From Artemia franciscana (taxonomy: Eukaryota > Arthropoda > Branchiopoda > Anostraca > Artemiidae): 64,000 nt of DNA. The DNA lies in assembly GCF_032884065.1 (NCBI RefSeq), contig NC_088880.1:23994715-24058714 (forward strand), given 5' to 3'. This document shows positions 13,690 through 62,702 of the stretch, in pieces. The position numbers were made by a program, and so were the translations under genes. Numbering within the stretch: the stretch's first letter is position 1; each line of letters begins with the position of its first letter. The notes under the pieces were generated by a model that saw only the letters and a program-made list of their open reading frames with translations, was not told the DNA's origin and did not search any database.

Positions 13690-15285
13690 TAGTATATATA
13701 TAACAAACAAATATAAAGTAGAAACAAAAGGGAAAATCTTTTCAAGACAGTGGAAATCAGTTCTGTGAATATTTCGGCCCTATGTCCAAGGGCCGTCTAA
13801 AGCACAATACGAGAACAAGAGAGAAAATATGTATATATAAATAAGCTTACATCAAATTATGAGAATTAAAACTAAATCATGTTTTCTAAAAGTTTTTTTA
13901 AAAACAGCCCTAGCATCCTTACTTCAACGAAGTTCAACCAGGACTGACAAAAAGAATGAAGTGAGAATATAAATTCATTCAAACTAAAGATAACAAAGTG
14001 ATTAAGTGCAATTTCTCAGAGCCAACCTTGCTTTTTAGCAGCCTGTCTCAAAGGCCTTTTCGTAGCTGGTTCAATACTATTATAAATCGGTTTAGTAAAA
14101 TATTTTGTTAGATCATTTTTAATTAAATTTGAGTATAAAGAATTTAGTGAGTATTCCCCTAAGTCCCTGTTCAAAGAAATATTATTATTTATTTTGAGAT
14201 TAATTTCGATTGATTCTCGAACCACCTGTTTTATCCCCAAATCATTACTGATGAGTGAAGATTTTTCAAAAAGTATCGTGTGGGACGGATTATTAAATAT
14301 ATGCCAACCTAAAGCAGAATCAAAGGAGTTGTTGGAACTGTTTGAAATTAATGCCTTGTCTAAGTCTTTTTTATGCTGTTGTAACCGTTTTTCTAGATTC
14401 TGATGGATCCTACCGACATAGTAATATCCACAATCACAGGGTATTTGATAGACCCCTCTTTGGCGAGTAACTGGGGTCTTGTCTTTACCGGAATTTAAGA
14501 AATTAATGATTTTAAAATTATTAGTAAAAACTACGTAGAGATTATTTTTTCTGCAAATATGTTTTAATTTTGTTGTGATTTTCGGGATATACGGAGGATA
14601 GACAATATTTGAGGGCTTATCAGTAGCCTCACATTGTGAAGTATCGTCTTCGATTTTACAAGAATGTCTTTTTATTCTACGGTTAATTATTTTATTGATA
14701 AAAGGAATGGGGTATCCATTACCAAAAAGAATATCTCTGATAAAGTTTATTTCTGCATTTATATACGAATCGGAGCAAATATTCAGGGCACGGTTAATGA
14801 GGGAAGTTACAACTGCTCTTTTTACTTGTGGGGAGTGATTTGAATTAAAGTGAAGATATCTATTGTTTTGTGTTGGCTTTCGATACATAGTAAAATCCAT
14901 TTGATCAGCATTACGAATAATCAACACATCTAAAAACGGTAGTTTATTTTCAATTTCAACTTCTAGGGTGAACTGCAAATTTCGGTCATAAGTGTTAAGA
15001 TGATCTAAGAAGCCCCGAACTTCAGCTTCCCCAAAATTCCGAAGTGAAATTACGTCATACATATAACGACCCCAAGAGACATGTTTCAAAAAATAAGAAT
15101 TTAATGCTCAATTTTCAAGGTTCTCGACATAAATATTTGCCAGTAGCCTGAATAATGGTGCCCCCATGGGTAACCCATTTTTTGCTGATAAAAAGAATCG
15201 CGAAATAGAAAATACATAGAAAACTTATTACAAATTTCTATCTTCCGTATATCCCAATTTTTTCTATCTTCCTTATATCCCAAAA
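13690..15285 (-). mobile_element. Penelope-like retroelement, 5'-truncated
   Basis: The minus strand carries the end of a Penelope-type RT followed by a GIY-YIG endonuclease domain and about 320 bp of 3' sequence. Upstream of the main frame (15101-15283) a frame-shifted remnant of the conserved palm motif G-PMGAPLS is readable, so the element originally extended further but is cut at about 15285, where a plus-strand copy begins. The 3' segment holds a 6-bp hairpin (GGCCCT / AGGGCC) at 13776-13794. Confidence 0.85.
14016..15089 (-). pseudogene. Penelope-like RT C-terminus with GIY-YIG endonuclease
   Basis: The 357-residue frame starts within the RT palm. The expected YVDD catalytic box reads RYMYDVISL (near 15051-15067), so the first catalytic Asp is replaced by Tyr. 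KLPFLDVLI and YRKPTQNNRYLHFNSNHS are typical Penelope RT/thumb motifs. Residues around 215-250 form the GIY-YIG nuclease: GVYQIPC, YYVGR and NLEKRLQQHKKDL, with GVY and YVG in place of GIY and YIG. The C-terminus is basic. The frame is otherwise intact, but the loss of the RT box, the missing N-terminal part and the frameshift make it non-functional. Confidence 0.85.
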
Positions 15286-16110
<825 letters not shown>

Positions 16111-21839: not shown

Positions 21840-24800
21840 TTAACTGCGTAAAAATTGTGAATATACAACATTCTTCGCTGTCAAATTGTTGCTACATATA
21901 AATAGATTGTCAGGTTTACCGACCCTCGAACATGTAACGTACAATTGTCCATGGGAAAAACAATCAGTATTAAGATCTATACCACATTTTTCTAATGATT
22001 GACCTTGAGCTTTGTTAATGGTGATTGCATATGCTAATCGAATTGGGAATTGCAATCTTTTAAATTGAAAAGGCAGATCCGTTGGAATCATGGGAATGCG
22101 AGGAATAAGAACAGCCTCACCCTCAAAAGGCCCTGTCAAGATTGTGGCCTCTATTAGGTTTTCCATTGTTTTTTTTACGGCAAGTCGCGTGCCATTGCAA
22201 AGCTTTGGTGGGTTGATATTTCTTAAAAGTATTATTGGTACGCCTATTTTTAGTTGTAGCACGTGTGGTGGAAACCCTGAAAGATCTATGGAATTTAAAA
22301 ATTCAGATGGATAATTAACCGCTTCGTTTGGTTCCAAAACTGTGTCGACTGACTTGTAAAGGACTGCCTGGTCTCGAATCTTGGTCAAAACAATATTGTT
22401 GATTTCGTGGACGTCTATATTTTTGGGTGCGAGAATTGCTCTTTCACTTAGCCATTTATTATTTTTATAATTTTTTAGAATATTCGGAAATACTTTTTCA
22501 ATCAATTCATTTTTGGACGTCACTAAATTACAGAAATCAGCAGGTAGTTGTATACGTCCTGAAATTGAGTCTACTGGGAGCTTTCCGTTTCCAATTGCCA
22601 GCAATTGATCTGAAAATGTTTGACCAGAGTCATCGTTTTGCAATCGGACACGTATATTTGTAGTTAATTTTAATATTTTTACGTGTGCCCATAAATTAGA
22701 ATTTTTCAGGCAAGCATTCATTTCGTCTGCAGGAGTTGATCTAGGTATTATAGGTAATGTTTGCCTGAAAACTCCCGCAAGCGATATTAATGTGCTGCCA
22801 AAGGGTTTCGACTTGCCTCTCAAATCTTTCAAGCATTGATCCAGTGCCTCGAGCGATTTTTTGTGTGCCATTGTGCACTCATCCCAAATAATAAGTTTGC
22901 ATTGCTGCAATACTTTACCCATCCCAGATGATTTGGAAATATTGCACGTGGGAGTTTCTGTAGAATGCAAATTCAGAGGCAATTTCAAAGCGGAATGAGC
23001 AGTTCTTCCACCAGGCAGCAATGTTGCGGCTATTCCGGACGACGCAATTGCCAACGCTATATCATTTTTTGATCGAATTGATGCCAGAATCAGTTTTATC
23101 ACAAATGTTTTACCAGTACCTCCTGGCGCATCCAAAAAGAAAATATCTCCAACGTTGTTATCGACACAATGCATTATCGTATCATAAATGTCTTTTTGTT
23201 CCGACATTAACTTGGAAATGTTATTTTGTACATACGACAATAGATCACTCGTACTGTAACTTTGTTCACGATCCAATTCTACACATGTCGAAACAGCAGC
23301 GATACGGTTAGGTGAAGGCATTCCCAAATCCTGAAGAGGTTTGTTTGCCATACGTACGCACAAATCTTCTATAATAACTAATGTGTAGTTATAAATTTCT
23401 GATGTAAAATCAAAATTCATATCTGACGTCTCTAACTGTTTTCGATGGAATATATCTTCGGACATTTTTGACTTATATTTTTCCCATAACTCTGTAGGAG
23501 CTGATGGAGAGCAAGTTGTTAAAATGATGCCAAACAATGCACGAATTTGACTTGGGGTTGACGTTTCGCACGCGTCATTGATGCAGTTATCCCAGTGTTG
23601 GTCATTCTCCAATAAATTCAGAGCTTGGCATGCACTATGGTATGTGTCATGTATAGTACCGTTTACAGTTCTCAAATACTCAAAGGATGTCGGACCGGGT
23701 ACATTCACCAAAAGCAGGCGTAGAAAGAAGCATTCATGTTGATTGGGGTGAACGGTGTAGAGTCTTCCTATCGTGGTATCTTTGAAGATGGTAGGTTGGC
23801 CGTCGACTGACTTACCCTGTTTTCGACGTTCAAATACTTTATTTTTAGTGTTCCACGTGTAATACGAAGGCAATTCAGTATACAACAATTTGTTTGCAAA
23901 AGAATCATTTTTGCAAAGCGAAAAAAAAGCTGTTAATGTTGTATCCGGTGGATTCAGGGCTCTTTGTTGCCTGTTGGTCTCCGTGAAATAAACACGTTGA
24001 CCATTCTGTAAATGTACCACTAAGTGAACAACAGCTGGACTACGTTCATGTATCGGAAATGAAAGAATTCGCCAAACAGCTTCATTACTGCTTATGTATC
24101 TTCCAGCCTGATATTGTACGATTTCGTCGAAATCTTTGATTTCGGGCTGCAAGCCAAAAACTGCCATGTCACTGCCTTTGTTGACGTATTTACATATGTA
24201 TTTGATTGCCTTTGCGGAGTTACAGTATTCAACGTTTATGTGTGCATTAAATGTTTTTGATAATAATGGGGAATATGGAACAACCCACTGGTTATCTACT
24301 TCGATGGTGGTACCGTTACGCTTCTTTATAATTGCTGTTTTACCGCCATCTTCAGTAGATCTTCTTCTATATTGTGGGTAACCATCATTGCCAGTAATTG
24401 TCTTTGATACTAAAAGTAGAGGATATTGCTTTGTGCACCTTCCTTTGGCCATGCATGGTGAATTTTCGTTCAGTGCACCGCAAGGTCCATGTATCATATT
24501 TTTTACAATAATATCATGCAACCCCTTATCGACATTTTTATCAGGTATTTCAGCGGAAATCACATCATCAATTTCGTTCGAAGTAATTTTTTTATGTAGC
24601 CAGATTAGTATATGTGCGTGTGGCAAACCTCGTTTTTGCCATTCCACTGAGTACATCCAGCATCGCACTGACCCAAACACTTCAATTTTTACTATGTAGT
24701 TTATCTGTGATTTCAACTTTTGCCGGAAGATACGGGCCGTAATGTCATGACTATGAACCGCCGATTGGCCTTGAAGTAAAAGCTGCAGTATCTCGTCCCA

Positions 24801-24977
24801 AGATTGATTACATGTAAATGTAATAAATAAATCTGGAAAACCATAGAGACGAACATACGCAATAGCATCTTGAGCATATTCATGCATATGACGGGGACTG
24901 CCAGCATATGACGAAGATAAAATTGTTAATCTTCCAACGTTTCTGGTATTACCGTCATTTATAACTACATCTCGCAA
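21840..24977 (-). pseudogene. Helitron Rep-helicase, main part (1,045 codons open)
   Basis: The frame holds a Rep nuclease with HUH motif GLPHAHILIWL (His120, His122; 24612-24620). The two catalytic tyrosines lie in KYICKYVNKGSD (Tyr260, Tyr264). A PIF1-like helicase follows: Walker A APGGTGKT (23106-23126), Walker B IIWDE (22878-22886), and C-terminal [17 protein letters not shown]. Motif III, GDFRQ in the family, reads AGVFRQ (Asp736 to Val); the plus-strand copy keeps GDFRQ. The first residue is only the end of an upstream stop-free stretch. In-frame upstream there is a TAG at 25008-25010 after YIRLN. The frame is otherwise remarkably intact, indicating recent inactivation. Confidence 0.92.
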
Positions 24978-25007
24978 ATGAATGTATTGTTCAGAGCGGA
25001 GCTTGGT

Positions 25008-26327
25008 CTAATTCAGGCGGATATATAGCAAACGTTCTGATTCAATTTTAGCATACATATCAACGACAAATTGGTGAAACAATTCACGGCATTTTAAAAT
25101 ATAATTTTCTTCATCCTGCCGAATCATTAGTCTATAGGAATAATAATGCATTGCACTGCATTTCTTATTCGTTTTTTGTTAGTGGCTGGATTCATCATTT
25201 TAATATTAAAGTGATAGCCGTCGGCTCCATCCCAAAAAATGATAGGATATTGTAAGGCATCGTAGCATCGATGAGTTTCAGCAATTCTTAACAACTGAGC
25301 GTTTCGCTTATGAAGAATAATATCTCGAGGTAAAAACTGATCACCGACCATAACGATTGCCACTTCGTCGATAGTTGGAGCATTGTATCTACGCACATGT
25401 TGGCCAGGAGGCGTTTTGTCAGCGGAAATAACAATTTTATGCGTATCAGTAGGCATCAAATCGATGGCTGTTTTGAACAGACGCACTAAATTATTATTTT
25501 CGTGGAAAAGATGTTGCAATTGGGAAACGATTGTCCTTTCAACCTTGGGAGAAATTTCGCAACGTGCATTCAATTCAGAATTTCTATCACTGATGAAGTA
25601 CAATTGTAAAAATTTATGATTCTCGCCTGAGAATGGTAGAAGGGACCCTGCTCTATGATAAATTTGCCCTTTTACTTTGAAAGTAGACACAAATTGATCT
25701 GGATTTTCGATTTGGGCTCCAAACGACGTCATTTGGAAAGATGAGTTGTATTTTCTGATTTTTGACAAAAAACGCTTAGATTCCGACGTAGTTCCAGTAA
25801 GGAAAGTCTTCAATGGCTCTGGTGGTGCAGCCAATATAGGAAGTTTAACTTTTCCTGAGGCGCAACGCATTCCCATTGTTTCACCATTGAATTTCAAGGC
25901 CTTGCAATAGGGACAAATTTTAGACATTGTCCCGATTTGAACACATCTACTCAAGCTATAATCATCGACTGGGCTGTACCTGAATGCCAGGCGATAACTT
26001 TCAGGTTGCTCTGATTCCTCGGCACGCTTTCTTTTCTTACTTTCTCTACCAGCAGCAAGCTTGATTTCTTGCTGTTCTTGTGATTCCTCGGCACGCTTTC
26101 TTTTCTAACTTTCTCTATCAGCAGCAAGCCTGATTTCTTGCTGTTCTTGTGATTCCTCGGCACGCCTTCTTTTTTCACTTTCTCTTTTAGCAGCAAGTCT
26201 GCTTTCGCGTTGCTCTGGTAGTTCCTCTGCACGCTTTCTTTTCTGACTTTGTCTATCAGCAGCAAGTTTTTTGGCATAGACTCTTTGAGCATCTTCATCG
26301 GCTTTTGCCATTGTAAGTTCATCAGTC
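25008..26327 (-). pseudogene. Helitron Rep N-terminal region, interrupted
   Basis: Starts at MTDELTMAKADEDAQRVYAK (near 26327) with ~27-residue repeats of the type KRKRAEESQEQQEIRLAADR (4 units, basic, probably helical). A TAG at 26105-26107 interrupts the repeats. The same frame resumes and reaches a Cys-rich zinc-finger-like CPYCKALKF ... MRCASGKVKLP (near 25905), then a conserved N-terminal Helitron domain ending near 25127. A frameshift near 25150-25165 separates NKKRIRNAV from the expected continuation HYYSYRLMIRQDEENY. The alternate frame 25951-26322 is a shadow of the repeats. Confidence 0.88.
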
Positions 26328-44089: not shown

Positions 44090-46330
44090 ATTTTGTGTTG
44101 ATGTTTTGTATTGATCCAAGACTTTATCCGAACCGTTTCTATTCTTGAGGAGCTTCAGTCTAGTAATGCAGGTGTAGATGTTACTTTAGAGTTTATCCTA
44201 GAGGCAACAAAAGAAGCATGGGACAGGTTTATTTCACACTATTGCATAAAAGAAGGTACAAGAAAAAGAAGAGGACTTCCAAAATTTGCACTTGATGCTA
44301 AAACAACAATAAAATAAACAAGTGATAAAAATAAACAATGGAGACGGTAGATGTTGGAAAAAACGAAGACTCGTGGTGGGCATATAAAAGGGCTCATAAT
44401 AATACCACTCGATCTCTACGCACACACCGGGAATCACTCGAAACGTCAATCATTATTAGCATTCTAGGGTGTCTGAGGGTATCCACGTAGGTTTTGGAAG
44501 TATGCTATTAGAAACAAGTTTGATTCCTCGACCGATTCGGGCATTCTTAGTGACCCAGCTACTAGTGAATTAATAAGTGATAATCAGGAAGAGGCTGATG
44601 TGGTTAGTTAAGTGTGTTCGTCAATTTTTGGAAATTCGAATGTAAATACCCCTCTAGCAAATCCGGTAAATACCCCTTAGCGTGGAAAAAAGCGGTCATA
44701 AGGCCACTCCACAAAGGAGAATCTAAATTTTAATTTGAAAGTCATCATCCAATTTCAAACACCTCAATTTTCTCGAGAGTTCTTGAAAAGACATTTGTAT
44801 ATCAGAAACAGGATTATTTCAAGCAAAGTAAATTATAGCATCCGTCACAACATGGTTTCAGAAAAAAAAACAGGTACTGCTATACGCAGTTGCTAGAAGT
44901 TATAAAAGATTTCTAAAACACGGATGATTTCGTTTTGAAGTTTGATTGCTTGTACAATGACTTCAGAAAAGCGTTTGATAAAGTTTCAATTAGTTTGTTG
45001 CTTGAAAAATGTGAAAAAAAATTAGCTAGGTAGTAGAACTTTAGCGTGGATTATAAATCTTAACAAGCCGTTCCCAGCAAGTCGTAGTCGGAATTACAAT
45101 TTGATTTTGAGTAGCTCGATTTTGAGTAGTGCGCCATAAGGCCGTTTTTTGGGGCCCAATGTTATTTTGTTTGTTTGTCAATGATTTGCCTAAAGTAATT
45201 CGTCACTCCACTGTCAAACTGTTTGCATACGATGTAAAGCTATATAAAGGCGTCACCTCCCTGATAGACATCACGTTTACTTAAGAAGACCTGAATGCCC
45301 TATATAATTGGTTAAATCGAATTCTGTGTTTGTAAACTATTAGAAATCTTTCGTACTTCATTACTTTTCGAAAAGCTCCACTTACCGTTATTTTCTTTGT
45401 GATACATCTGTTTCATTTGCAGATTTAGCAAGGGATTAAGGTAGTCACTTTGATAACCAGTTGAAGTTTCACAAGCATGCATCAACAATTTTGCGAAATG
45501 CTATTTGTAGTCCGTTTCGAAATAAAAGAAGTTCCAGGAAAGTTAACCTCCAATTTTTACGACACTATACAAGACAATAATACTCCCAGCGATATAATAT
45601 TGTTCCTCTGTGTTGTATCTGACCTGGAAACGTGACTCGCAGCAAATTGAAAGAATTCAACGTTGAGCAGCAGAGTTTGTGCCATATCTGAGTCATTTAC
45701 CATATCAGCGTTGACTCCGATGTTTGGGACTTCTTTCCTGCAGTTTCAACGGGAAAGGATTGACCTGATCAATGCGCTCCGTATTATGAAAGGTGTTGAT
45801 AATGTATACTGGGCTTACTTCTTCATGCTTAGTCATTACTCAGTCACTCGACAAAACTTGTATAAACTGTATCCGCTGCGAGTACACAATAAAACAGATC
45901 ACTGTAGCTTTATTAATCAAGCAATAAAGCTTATAGTTTATCTTATACCGTAGTTTCTGTGCAAATGGTGAAAACATTTGAGAGTGATCTCGTTGAAACT
46001 GAGCTCTATGAAAAACAATTTCCGTAATATAGTGATTTGTATAGTTGCTTTACTGAAGAATTTTTTTTGTTTTGCAATGTTGTTTTTGAGCTGCCATTTT
46101 TGTATTTGTGCTGCGACAAGCCAGTGGCTAACTGCTGTGTTGAATAAAATAGATAAAATAAACAGATTGGAATGTAGGTGTACCTTGAGCAGCTTTGTCA
46201 ACCTCAAGTGGTTAGGCGCTGCAATGAATTGTTACTTTGTTAGTAGCTATGATACTATATCTTCTTATTCTTGGTCGGGTCTTCCTCACATATAGTTAAG
46301 GGAATATTCAAAGGTTGCGTTTCTTCTAAT
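44090..46330 (+). mobile_element. Jockey/CR1-like LINE relic (linker, RT and C-terminus)
   Basis: 44111-44460 encodes the region between endonuclease and RT (ATKEAWDRFISHYCIKEG, WWAYKRAHNNTTRSLRTHRE in shifting frames). From 44670 the RT begins with PLAWKKAVIRPLHKGES, then HPSQHGFRKK, and a motif A remnant DFRKAFDKVS. A GVPQGS region reads WGPMLFCLFVNDLPKVIRHS, with FAYD where FADD is expected. The C-terminus spells RIQR, AAEFVPYLSHLPYQ and LYKLYPLRVHNKT (open at 45663-45953). Many stops and frameshifts. The 3' end near 46330 shares the caagtggttaggcgctgcaa motif with the fragment at 49388. Confidence 0.85.
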
Positions 46331-49485: not shown

Positions 49486-50801
49486 TAGTCAAAGTTCAAA
49501 TCCCTCAAGTGGTAAGTGTTATTTGCACCTACCTGAAAATCAAATTAAAAAAGCAAAGACCAAATTGCAAAAAAAGCAGAAATTAGTTCATGTAAGATTT
49601 TGAACGTAAATTCAGCAGAAATTACAATAACTGAAATAGCCAAAACAGAAATTAAATTAATGAATTAAGACTTAGAACAAACAGAAATTCATGCAAATTA
49701 AGACAATGTTGTAACTCTCTCAAACTCTAAATTGCTTGATTGAAATTTTGTTTATGAAATTGTTCTTCTACACATTTGAATGGAATAGATCTAAAATTCA
49801 AATAGTATTGACAACAATAAGGTTTCTTTTCAATAATTATGACTAAGTGGATAACCACAGATGATTTATATTGAGACTATGTGTTGAATTAATGCACTTA
49901 ATGTATATTGCTCTTGGGGATTTTTTGTTGAAGATTTCGGCTCCTATCAAAGAAATATAGTGAGTGCTTATGTCCTCCAATTGACGTCACTACATGTTTA
50001 GAGTATGCAATCTTTGCTGTATTCTAATTTAGGATATAGCATATGACCATATTAGACCAATATGTATAGTTAACAGGCTCAAAAATTCTTGAACATTAGT
50101 TTGGTGAAAATCAAAAGACATTTTCTAAAACGTATGCCTGCTGCGTTTTGTATTTGGGTTTATTTGTAAATGGTAACTAGTCTAAGCTTTGTTTTGGAAA
50201 GGTTAAAGATCTTTACATACAAACTTCAGTGAATATTAAACACAATTTATGAAATATGTATTTAATACATTTTGATTATTTACTACAGGTTGTTTCCAGT
50301 AGTACCATAGTCCACCAGTTGTCTGAGATAAAATATAACAGGATTTGATGACCTGATTTAGGCTCTATGGTTGTTTTTCTTAACTGTAGGATTTTTTTTT
50401 TGCACCTTGAATATTACAATTTCATATATTTCTATTTTAAACACTAAACTTATTCACTTAACTGAACTAACCAAAGAGCCTCTTGAAAACAGACATAAAC
50501 TCCTTTAGCCTACACTCTTTTGTGAGGAAAAAAGGAAAAACTGGAAGTTTCAACTTGATCAATTTTTTTTTTACTTGTTGGAATCAAAAAGGGTTGGTGA
50601 TTATCTAGGTAAAACATCAGATAAAGTCTTTTAATGTCCCCTTTTAGGCTTTTTTTTGGCTTAATTATCTGCTGTAGTTTTATCAAAATAGACTTAAGTT
50701 TTAAAATATTCGTAAGGGGGTAATTACCTCCTTTCATTCTTATACAAAAAAAAATGACTTGAATGACAAAAATATTTGTATTTTTTTTTTTTTTTTTACA
50801 G
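49486..50801. other. Unassigned sequence upstream of the small-protein exon
   Basis: Mostly AT-rich. Ends with a strong 3' splice-site context: a T-run (about 50781-50797) followed by acag at 50798-50801. A minus-strand frame at 50510-50806 is Lys-rich and lies across the T-run, so it is not credible. An upstream exon is expected but not identified. Confidence 0.4.
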
Positions 50802-51060
50802 ATCAACCAAATGGTGTCAGGAAATGACTGACTATAATAAATTGCTCAATATCAAGCCAGAACCAAGTGATTACACACCATTCTATATAGCCATAGGAAT
50901 TTGTTCATTCCTCCTTGCCTTTTTATTCATTTTTAATTGCTGCATGTGCTTTTGTGTTAAGGAGTACAAAGCTTATTGGCAAGATCACCATACAGGCAAC
51001 CGTTGGATTTTGCCTCTGTTTGTTTCAACACCCAAAGATCAGCCCCCTGTAGACTTATAA
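50802..51060 (+). CDS. Small single-pass membrane protein, first cistron of a candidate dicistronic exon
   Basis: The exon starts after tttttttacag at 50801. The frame is open from the splice site (two nucleotides needed from an upstream exon, then STKWCQE), and an internal ATG at 50824 (GAAATGA, G at -3) gives a 78-residue protein. It has a short polar N-terminus (MTDYNKLLNIKPEPSDYTP), one hydrophobic segment (about residues 22-44, IAIGICSFLLAFLFIFNC), a Cys cluster at the membrane edge (CCMCFC, possible acylation) and a basic, Trp-containing tail ending in KDQPPVDL and TAA. A tiny out-of-frame upstream ORF (ATG at 50811, six codons) overlaps its start. Codon use and topology look real. No family recognised. 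Confidence 0.65.
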
Positions 51061-51122
51061 TTTTCTACTGTGAATTTTTAAAGAAGTTTTATATATTAGT
51101 TGAGACAAAAACGAAGTTGAAG

Positions 51123-51365
51123 ATGTTTCATGTCTATTGGCCTCCTGCCACTGTTCTCACTTTATTGGTTGTTTTTGTCATTGTGTTGATACTAAGATAT
51201 GGCGATCGATGGTGTAAAGCGCGTCATATAGCGTTTGCTGATACTGACTATGTTGAAGATGTTGAATCAACTACAGATGATACAGCAAGTTTGAAAACTG
51301 AAACTTTTCAGTTAAAAGAAGCAGAGTTCATTGAACAACCAAAGTCTAAAGAGTATTCTGTATAA
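51123..51365 (+). CDS. Small single-pass membrane protein, second cistron
   Basis: ATG at 51123 (GAAGATGT, A at -3) is the first ATG after the stop of the upstream cistron, 62 nt away in a different frame. The 80-residue product has a short N-terminus (MFHVYWPP), a hydrophobic segment (about residues 9-25, TVLTLLVVFVIVLIL), a basic flank (RYGDRWCKAR), then an acidic Ser/Thr/Glu-rich tail ending EQPKSKEYSV and TAA. The charge pattern predicts the tail in the cytosol. The frame is open 49 codons upstream of the ATG only by overlap with the first cistron. It could instead be an alternative-exon C-terminus, or translated by reinitiation. No family recognised. Confidence 0.6.
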   Translation: MFHVYWPPATVLTLLVVFVIVLILRYGDRWCKARHIAFADTDYVEDVESTTDDTASLKTETFQLKEAEFIEQPKSKEYSV

Positions 51366-51765
51366 GTATTCCAAGATCCACGGAGTTCACAGGCCATTAT
51401 TATTTTCTATTTCACTGAAGTTAATGTCTCTATTTTACTAAAAAAAAATTATTTTTTAGATTTTTTACCTTGGCAATATTATCAGCACTTTGATGGGTTT
51501 AAAAGTTTAGAGAATGCTTGAAAAAACAACTCTAAAAACAGTAAAACAAGAAGGTTCCCAGCTTTCCAAGGTGTAATTTTCTATTGCATTGTTATATAGT
51601 AGTCTTGTTTTGATTGTTATCTGAGGTAATGGTTGATTTGGAACATTTCCTCCAACATAACCAATAAATTTGTTAGCTTGATTAAAAAAAATTAAAAGAT
51701 GTAGAAATTTGACTATAACTTGTAATTTTCCAGCTTTTTAAAGTCAATAAATGATTTAAAATTAG
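51366..51765 (+). promoter_or_regulatory. Candidate 3' UTR with polyadenylation signals
   Basis: AATAAA hexamers occur at about 51663 and 51746 downstream of the second cistron, and no further frames intervene. The extent is inferred. Confidence 0.4.
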
Positions 51766-62107: not shown

Positions 62108-62702
62108 CTTGACAAAGAGCAATGACAGATCAATAATCTGTGTCCAAAAAAAAGAGCCATGGCTGATCAATAATCTGTGGTCGACAAAAGAGCAATGACA
62201 GACCAATAAACTGTGTTCCAAAAAGAGCCATGACAGGCTAATATATGTTCGACGAAAGAGTCACTACTGATCAATAATATGTGTTCGACAAATGAGCCAT
62301 GACTGATAAATAGTCGATGGTCTACAAACGGGACATGCCTGGTCAATAATCTGTGGTCGACAAAAGGGTCATGAAAGGTCAATAATCTGTTTTCCAGAAA
62401 GAGCCATGACTGACCAATATGTGTTCGACGAAAAAGCCACGAATGATCAATAATCCATGTTCGACAAAAGGGCCATGACTGGTCAATTATCGACTGAAGA
62501 GCCATAATTGGTCTATAAGCTCTGTCGACAAAAGAACCATGACTAGTCAATAACCTATGTTCAATGAAGAGCCATGACTGATCAATAATATATGTTTGTC
62601 AAAATAGGCAGATTTGGTCTAAAAGCTCTGTCGACAAAAGAACCATGACTGGTCAATAATCTGTGTTCGATGAAGAGCTATGACTGATCAATAATCTATG
62701 TC
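62108..62702. repeat. Minisatellite, ~38-45-bp unit, about 14 copies
   Basis: Consensus near gagccatgactgatcaataa + tctgtgttcgacaaaa. A larger ~125-bp unit (ggtctataagctctgtcgac on) is duplicated at ~62510 and ~62615. The 127-codon minus frame (62167-62550) with a 15-residue HGSFVEHRLL-type period is a by-product of the 45-bp unit. Confidence 0.9.

Follow-up and report, generated by a model that had tools for sequence, protein, structure and literature searches.

The locus lies on the plus strand of the window (the whole stretch of DNA that was analysed, 64,000 nucleotides, C18:23994715-24058714 of a 1.27 Gb assembly) and consists of two short open reading frames, ORF1 and ORF2, which follow each other downstream of a splice-like site. 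Its features are as follows.

50781..50801, plus strand: candidate 3' splice site, a run of T followed by ACAG, with 17 of 18 pyrimidines at 50781-50798
50802..50823, plus strand: possible 5' leader or in-frame extension of ORF1
50811..50831, plus strand: upstream ORF (uORF) of six codons, overlapping the ORF1 start
50824..51060, plus strand: ORF1, 78 codons, with one hydrophobic helix and a Cys-rich end (FNCCMCFC)
51061..51122, plus strand: ORF1-ORF2 gap, 62 nt, free of ATG
51123..51365, plus strand: ORF2, 80 codons in another frame than ORF1, with an N-terminal hydrophobic helix and an acidic tail
51663..51668, plus strand: candidate poly(A) signal AATAAA
51746..51751, plus strand: candidate poly(A) signal AATAAA

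The sequence-only reading of this DNA had described a good 3' splice site, and the pyrimidine tract before the YAG ending at 50801 agrees with it; equal richness was found at 24 of the 3150 YAG sites on both strands of the window, this site included. The exon itself is postulated from this splice-like site. The other elements of that description were also recovered, namely ORFs of 78 and 80 codons in different frames with one hydrophobic segment each, the overlapping six-codon uORF at 50811, the ATG-free gap of 62 nt and the downstream AATAAA signals at 51663 and 51746. As claimed, both starts carry a purine at position -3 (G for ORF1, A for ORF2), and the ORF2 start is the next ATG after the ORF1 stop. 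From the exon start to ORF2, the only ATGs are that of the uORF and two in frame with ORF1, its start at 50824 and a second one at 50944. The ORF1 frame stays open from 50767, upstream of the splice-like site, up to 51060; the exon could thus code from its first base onwards and continue a reading frame begun in an upstream exon. If such an upstream coding exon exists, 50802..50823 would possibly extend ORF1 by STKWCQE before its methionine.

The best 19-residue Kyte-Doolittle mean was 2.47 for ORF1 and 2.53 for ORF2, with one hydrophobic segment in each. AlphaFold2, run on single sequences, placed one helix in each protein (residues 18-56 of ORF1 and 8-34 of ORF2), with whole-model pLDDT values of 73.2 and 64.8, respectively, and about 95-98 in the helix cores. 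The charges flanking the helices, judged by eye, suggest an N-outside, C-inside topology for both proteins.

We then compared these properties with chance expectation. When 50802-51500 was shuffled 3000 times with dinucleotide make-up kept, ATG ORFs of 75 amino acids or more arose on the plus strand in 109 shuffles, and two of them together in none. Random sequences matched in dinucleotide make-up to each half reached this length in 143 (ORF1 half) and 172 (ORF2 half) of 20000 cases; length together with a segment mean of at least 2.4 was reached in 4 of 20000 for each half. Among random ORFs of 70-100 amino acids, 139 of 349 had a hydrophobic mean of at least 1.6 and 5 of 349 one of at least 2.4. 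DNA of this kind often yields mildly hydrophobic frames, so that the presence of a membrane segment is by itself weak evidence. Strong segments occur more often among the real frames of the window than in random sequence: 6 of its 60 ATG ORFs of 60-120 amino acids (29 on the plus strand, 31 on the minus strand) reach 2.4, ORF1 and ORF2 included, and many of the other hydrophobic ones stem, by eye, from repeats. Six pairs of same-strand neighbouring ORFs, separated by under 300 nt, reach at least 1.6 in both members; ORF1/ORF2 is the sole pair with both above 2.45.

Coding signals differed between the two frames. The period-3 score of ORF2 was 4.08, reached by none of 851 overlapping local windows, whereas that of ORF1 was 0.38, equalled or exceeded by 770 of them. 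The codon score, which is rough because its codon usage was trained on eight transposon frames and not on host genes, was 9.7 for ORF2 and about -0.2 for ORF1. In 422 overlapping stop-free local windows, the median of this score was -9.0, and its 95th and 99th percentiles were 6.5 and 9.9; ORF2 falls between these percentiles, and ORF1 exceeds the median and the scores of its two alternative forward frames (-7.9 and -6.0) but is far below ORF2. Third-position GC set ORF1 apart, with 0.397 versus 0.25 in ORF2, 0.236 in the sloth1 homologue and 0.283 in the sloth2 homologue of the same genome (described below). These homologues have modest period-3 scores themselves (1.59 and 1.31), and therefore a short ORF cannot be judged on missing periodicity alone. 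ORF2 is the better supported of the two ORFs, and support for ORF1 comes from its length and hydrophobic segment, not from periodicity. In our judgement, ORF2 is quite probably a real coding sequence, and ORF1 is probably real in some form, with a little less assurance.

The path of a scanning ribosome from the ORF1 start to ORF2 contains no out-of-frame ATG, which counts in favour of translation of both frames from one mRNA. This absence is within chance and thus carries little weight. Out-of-frame ATGs were missing from 7253 and 7019 of 20000 versions of ORF1 recoded synonymously with two codon tables (about 0.36), and from 13297 of 20000 in which its own codons were permuted (0.66); 1835 of 5939 local 62-mers (about 0.31) are also free of ATG. 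Selection against intervening ATGs, not significant by recoding, codon permutation or local 62-mers, was rejected. Given the G at -3 of the ORF1 start, leaky scanning past it would be partial.

The sequence-only reading knew of no named family for either peptide, and in Pfam no match over cut-off was found for ORF1 or ORF2. The hydrophobic segment of ORF1 and its surroundings (residues 21-56) matched Commissureless (PF15957) with an E value of 0.0028 and 18.3 bits, where 27 bits would be needed, and the score dropped to 17.7 bits when the upstream extension was included. Neither LPSY nor PPxY, which we take to be the sorting motif of the Commissureless cytoplasmic tail, occurs in the ORF1 translation. 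A genome-wide search for Commissureless returned at least five further sites scoring 17.1-26.6 bits; the five stayed below the cut-off, and stop codons interrupt four of them. This search, with 14 first-look candidates, was incomplete, as ORF1, rankable at 18.3 bits, was not among the matches listed. Being below cut-off and devoid of the motifs, ORF1 was rejected as a Commissureless protein. An assignment of ORF2 to PspB (14.7 bits against a cut-off of 25.6) was likewise rejected, as were Pfam matches to ETRAMP and mucin, all below cut-off.

Among solved structures, the best E value for ORF1 was 0.24, and nothing was found for ORF2 at E up to 10. Viral contigs gave one 13-residue match for ORF1, judged to be chance, and none for ORF2. 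Prokaryote genomes gave none for ORF1 and one Rhizobium match for ORF2 (query residues 17-35), which lies mostly inside the hydrophobic segment and was also judged to be chance. Because the searched collections are viral and prokaryotic, missing relatives say little. A literature search found no description of the ORF1/ORF2 pair among the matches listed.

The closest known system is sloth1/sloth2 (CG32736/CG42308; human SMIM4 and C12orf73/Brawnin), whose Pfam families we take to be PF15114 (UPF0640) and PF14990 (DUF4516). At E up to 10, PF15114 was not listed for ORF1 nor PF14990 for ORF2, with HMMER filters that drop most matches above E about 0.1. The sole UPF0640 match of the genome at E up to 1 lies at C21:29692766 and the sole DUF4516 match at C21:29707286, both over cut-off and on the same strand. 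The sloth1 homologue consists of one exon, an intron of about 14 kb and a second exon with the last codons and the stop, an exon join deduced from frame and splice consensus; the sloth2 homologue begins with an ATG 12 nt after the sloth1 stop in the same exon (C21:29692754-29707468). The dicistronic sloth layout thus probably exists in this animal, as judged from the arrangement of these frames. ORF1/ORF2 was rejected as the sloth pair itself, since neither sloth family was listed for its frames and the sloth homologues lie elsewhere, on C21.

Both systems have two small single-pass membrane proteins encoded in tandem with a short gap. In Drosophila, sloth1 and sloth2 are translated from one transcript and leaky scanning is supported, according to PMC9681215, which also gives a gap of 5 nt and 27% likeness between Sloth1 and Sloth2. 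The gap is 62 nt in ORF1/ORF2 versus 12 nt in the sloth pair of the same genome and the 5 nt stated for Drosophila, and BLASTP gave no alignment between ORF1 and ORF2 at E up to 100, in contrast to that 27%. A study cited in PMC9681215 indicates that human bicistronic genes with a small ORF (smORF) often encode interacting pairs, and PMC11674832 states membrane helices for 32% of annotated Drosophila short coding sequences. With Drosophila dicistronic genes in general, of which annotation release 6.04 of D. melanogaster holds 159 pairs (PMC4528330), ORF1/ORF2 shares tandem same-strand ORFs and a downstream start at the next ATG after the first stop. It differs from that class in being known from sequence alone.

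Concerning copy number, ORF1 and the exon DNA had one match each at E of 0.001 or less in the 1.27 Gb genome, and ORF2 had one strong match and five others at E 0.135 or worse. A transposable element was rejected, as protein and DNA searches of the genome found the stretch once. A comparison of 44-56 kb with the window, with the low-complexity filter on, gave no match of the exon elsewhere in it. Between 33 and 50.8 kb, a codon scan whose listing begins at 33 kb and whose codon model could miss host exons revealed no convincing coding exon that might precede ORF1. Five high-scoring frames emerged, all short but one, and the longest has a weak match to a zinc-binding domain in reverse transcriptase (E 0.0073, 17.4 bits against a cut-off of 27.5). 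By eye, the stretch at 44-46 kb resembles a decayed reverse-transcriptase element; a Bcl-2-like hint within it (44105-44317, E 0.12) was far below cut-off and was dropped.

In our reading, to which we give a probability of roughly 0.45, a pancrustacean host gene present in one copy would end with this exon, and its mRNA would carry two small membrane-protein ORFs. Directly seen at the locus are the intact ORFs, their hydrophobic segments, the splice-like site, the poly(A) signals, the single genome copy and the periodicity of ORF2. One transcript would span ORF1 and ORF2, and such a shared transcript is probable but unproven. ORF1 would be translated from 50824, and some ribosomes would bypass its start, or resume scanning past its stop, and initiate at 51123. 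Co-synthesis suggests, without proof, that both proteins act in one membrane complex. The dicistronic claim of the sequence-only reading holds in part. The locus is most economically read as one exon coding for two small single-pass membrane proteins, and homologues of the sloth pair, dicistronic in Drosophila, have a similar layout in this genome; on the other hand, ORF1 lacks periodicity and may end a longer protein, and the depletion of ATG is not significant. It is plausible that ORF1/ORF2 represents an undescribed dicistronic smORF gene.

Among other explanations, ORF1 could be the C-terminal part of a longer protein, with the exon coding from 50802 and ORF2 as a second cistron or part of the 3' UTR. 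The frame open from 50767 across the splice-like site agrees with this, and the sloth1 homologue of the same genome appears to be so built, with one exon and a short last exon shared with sloth2. However, the scan from 33 to 50.8 kb showed no convincing upstream coding exon, and close to the exon start ORF1 has an ATG preceded by G at -3; we consider a longer protein unlikely. Rather less likely would be separate transcripts for the two ORFs, produced by alternative promoters or splicing. Both monocistronic forms have transcript support at 45 of the 159 Drosophila dicistronic loci (PMC4528330), and a TAG acceptor-like site ending at 51099 lies within the gap; that site is nevertheless poor, with 8 of 18 pyrimidines, and 2263 of the 3150 YAG sites are as good. 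The possibility that ORF2 is the sole protein and ORF1 a fortuitous open frame in the leader is also improbable. It draws on the periodicity present in ORF2 and missing from ORF1, and on the mild hydrophobicity that random ORFs often have, but a frame of such length and segment strength is rare by chance, and the modest periodicity of both sloth homologues makes its lack in ORF1 weak evidence.

If neither ORF were coding, both would be chance frames in AT-rich DNA. The want of a Pfam match over cut-off and of a credible viral or prokaryote relative fits this, although collections of that kind say little about missing relatives, and the 3000 shuffles without two ORFs, the period-3 score of ORF2 above all 851 local windows and the 4 in 20000 for length plus segment make it very improbable. 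We give still less credence to one two-helix protein joined from ORF1 and ORF2 by a frameshift or an unseen small intron. The ORF2 frame is open from 50961 and overlaps ORF1 by 100 nt, as a fusion would need; yet no X XXY YYZ slippery site, the sole frameshift signal sought, was found in the ORF1 frame, and ORF2 opens with an ATG of its own, preceded by A at -3.

A stronger version of the two-ORF reading, in which reinitiation or leaky scanning yields two unrelated single-pass proteins from one mRNA and these are obligate partners in one membrane complex, appears doubtful. If it were true, this animal would have a second dicistronic membrane-smORF pair beside sloth, with neither protein in a known family. 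The dicistronic layout itself is already known in animals; if both proteins are made and kept together in relatives, the locus would add an undescribed pair to the dicistronic membrane-microprotein genes and would allow one to test whether microproteins encoded together are often partners.

Elsewhere in the window, the minus-strand stretch 21840-26104 contains frames of 1055 and 325 amino acids, which resemble by eye what we take to be the replication/helicase protein of a Helitron; partial copies of them lie around 18.9-20.8 and 31.0-32.5 kb. Two similar frames, one per strand (14016-15107, minus; 15220-15960, plus), resemble by eye what we take to be the end of a Penelope-type element. A minus-strand frame of 112 amino acids at 62167-62505 is made of short repeats and had no Pfam match at E up to 1.

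The assembly contains 75 cox1 matches, many of them on the large contigs C1-C21, and TAA or TAG stops besides TGA occur in 35 of the 75 match rows (hand count). Mitochondrial DNA inserted many times into the nuclear genome, or misassembly, would explain them. Contig C6468 (15.8 kb) carries cox1, and its remaining genes were recognised by eye from translations, in the order nad2, cox1, cox2, cox3, nad3, nad5 (minus), nad4 (minus), nad4L (minus), nad6, cob and nad1 (minus). Read by eye, a tRNA-Leu(UUR)-like sequence (trnL2) lies between cox1 and cox2, and the resulting cox1-trnL2-cox2 arrangement, which is the pancrustacean one, makes an insect or crustacean source likely, in agreement with the earlier guess. 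ARAGORN, set to the bacterial code, detected no tRNA on three pieces of this contig.
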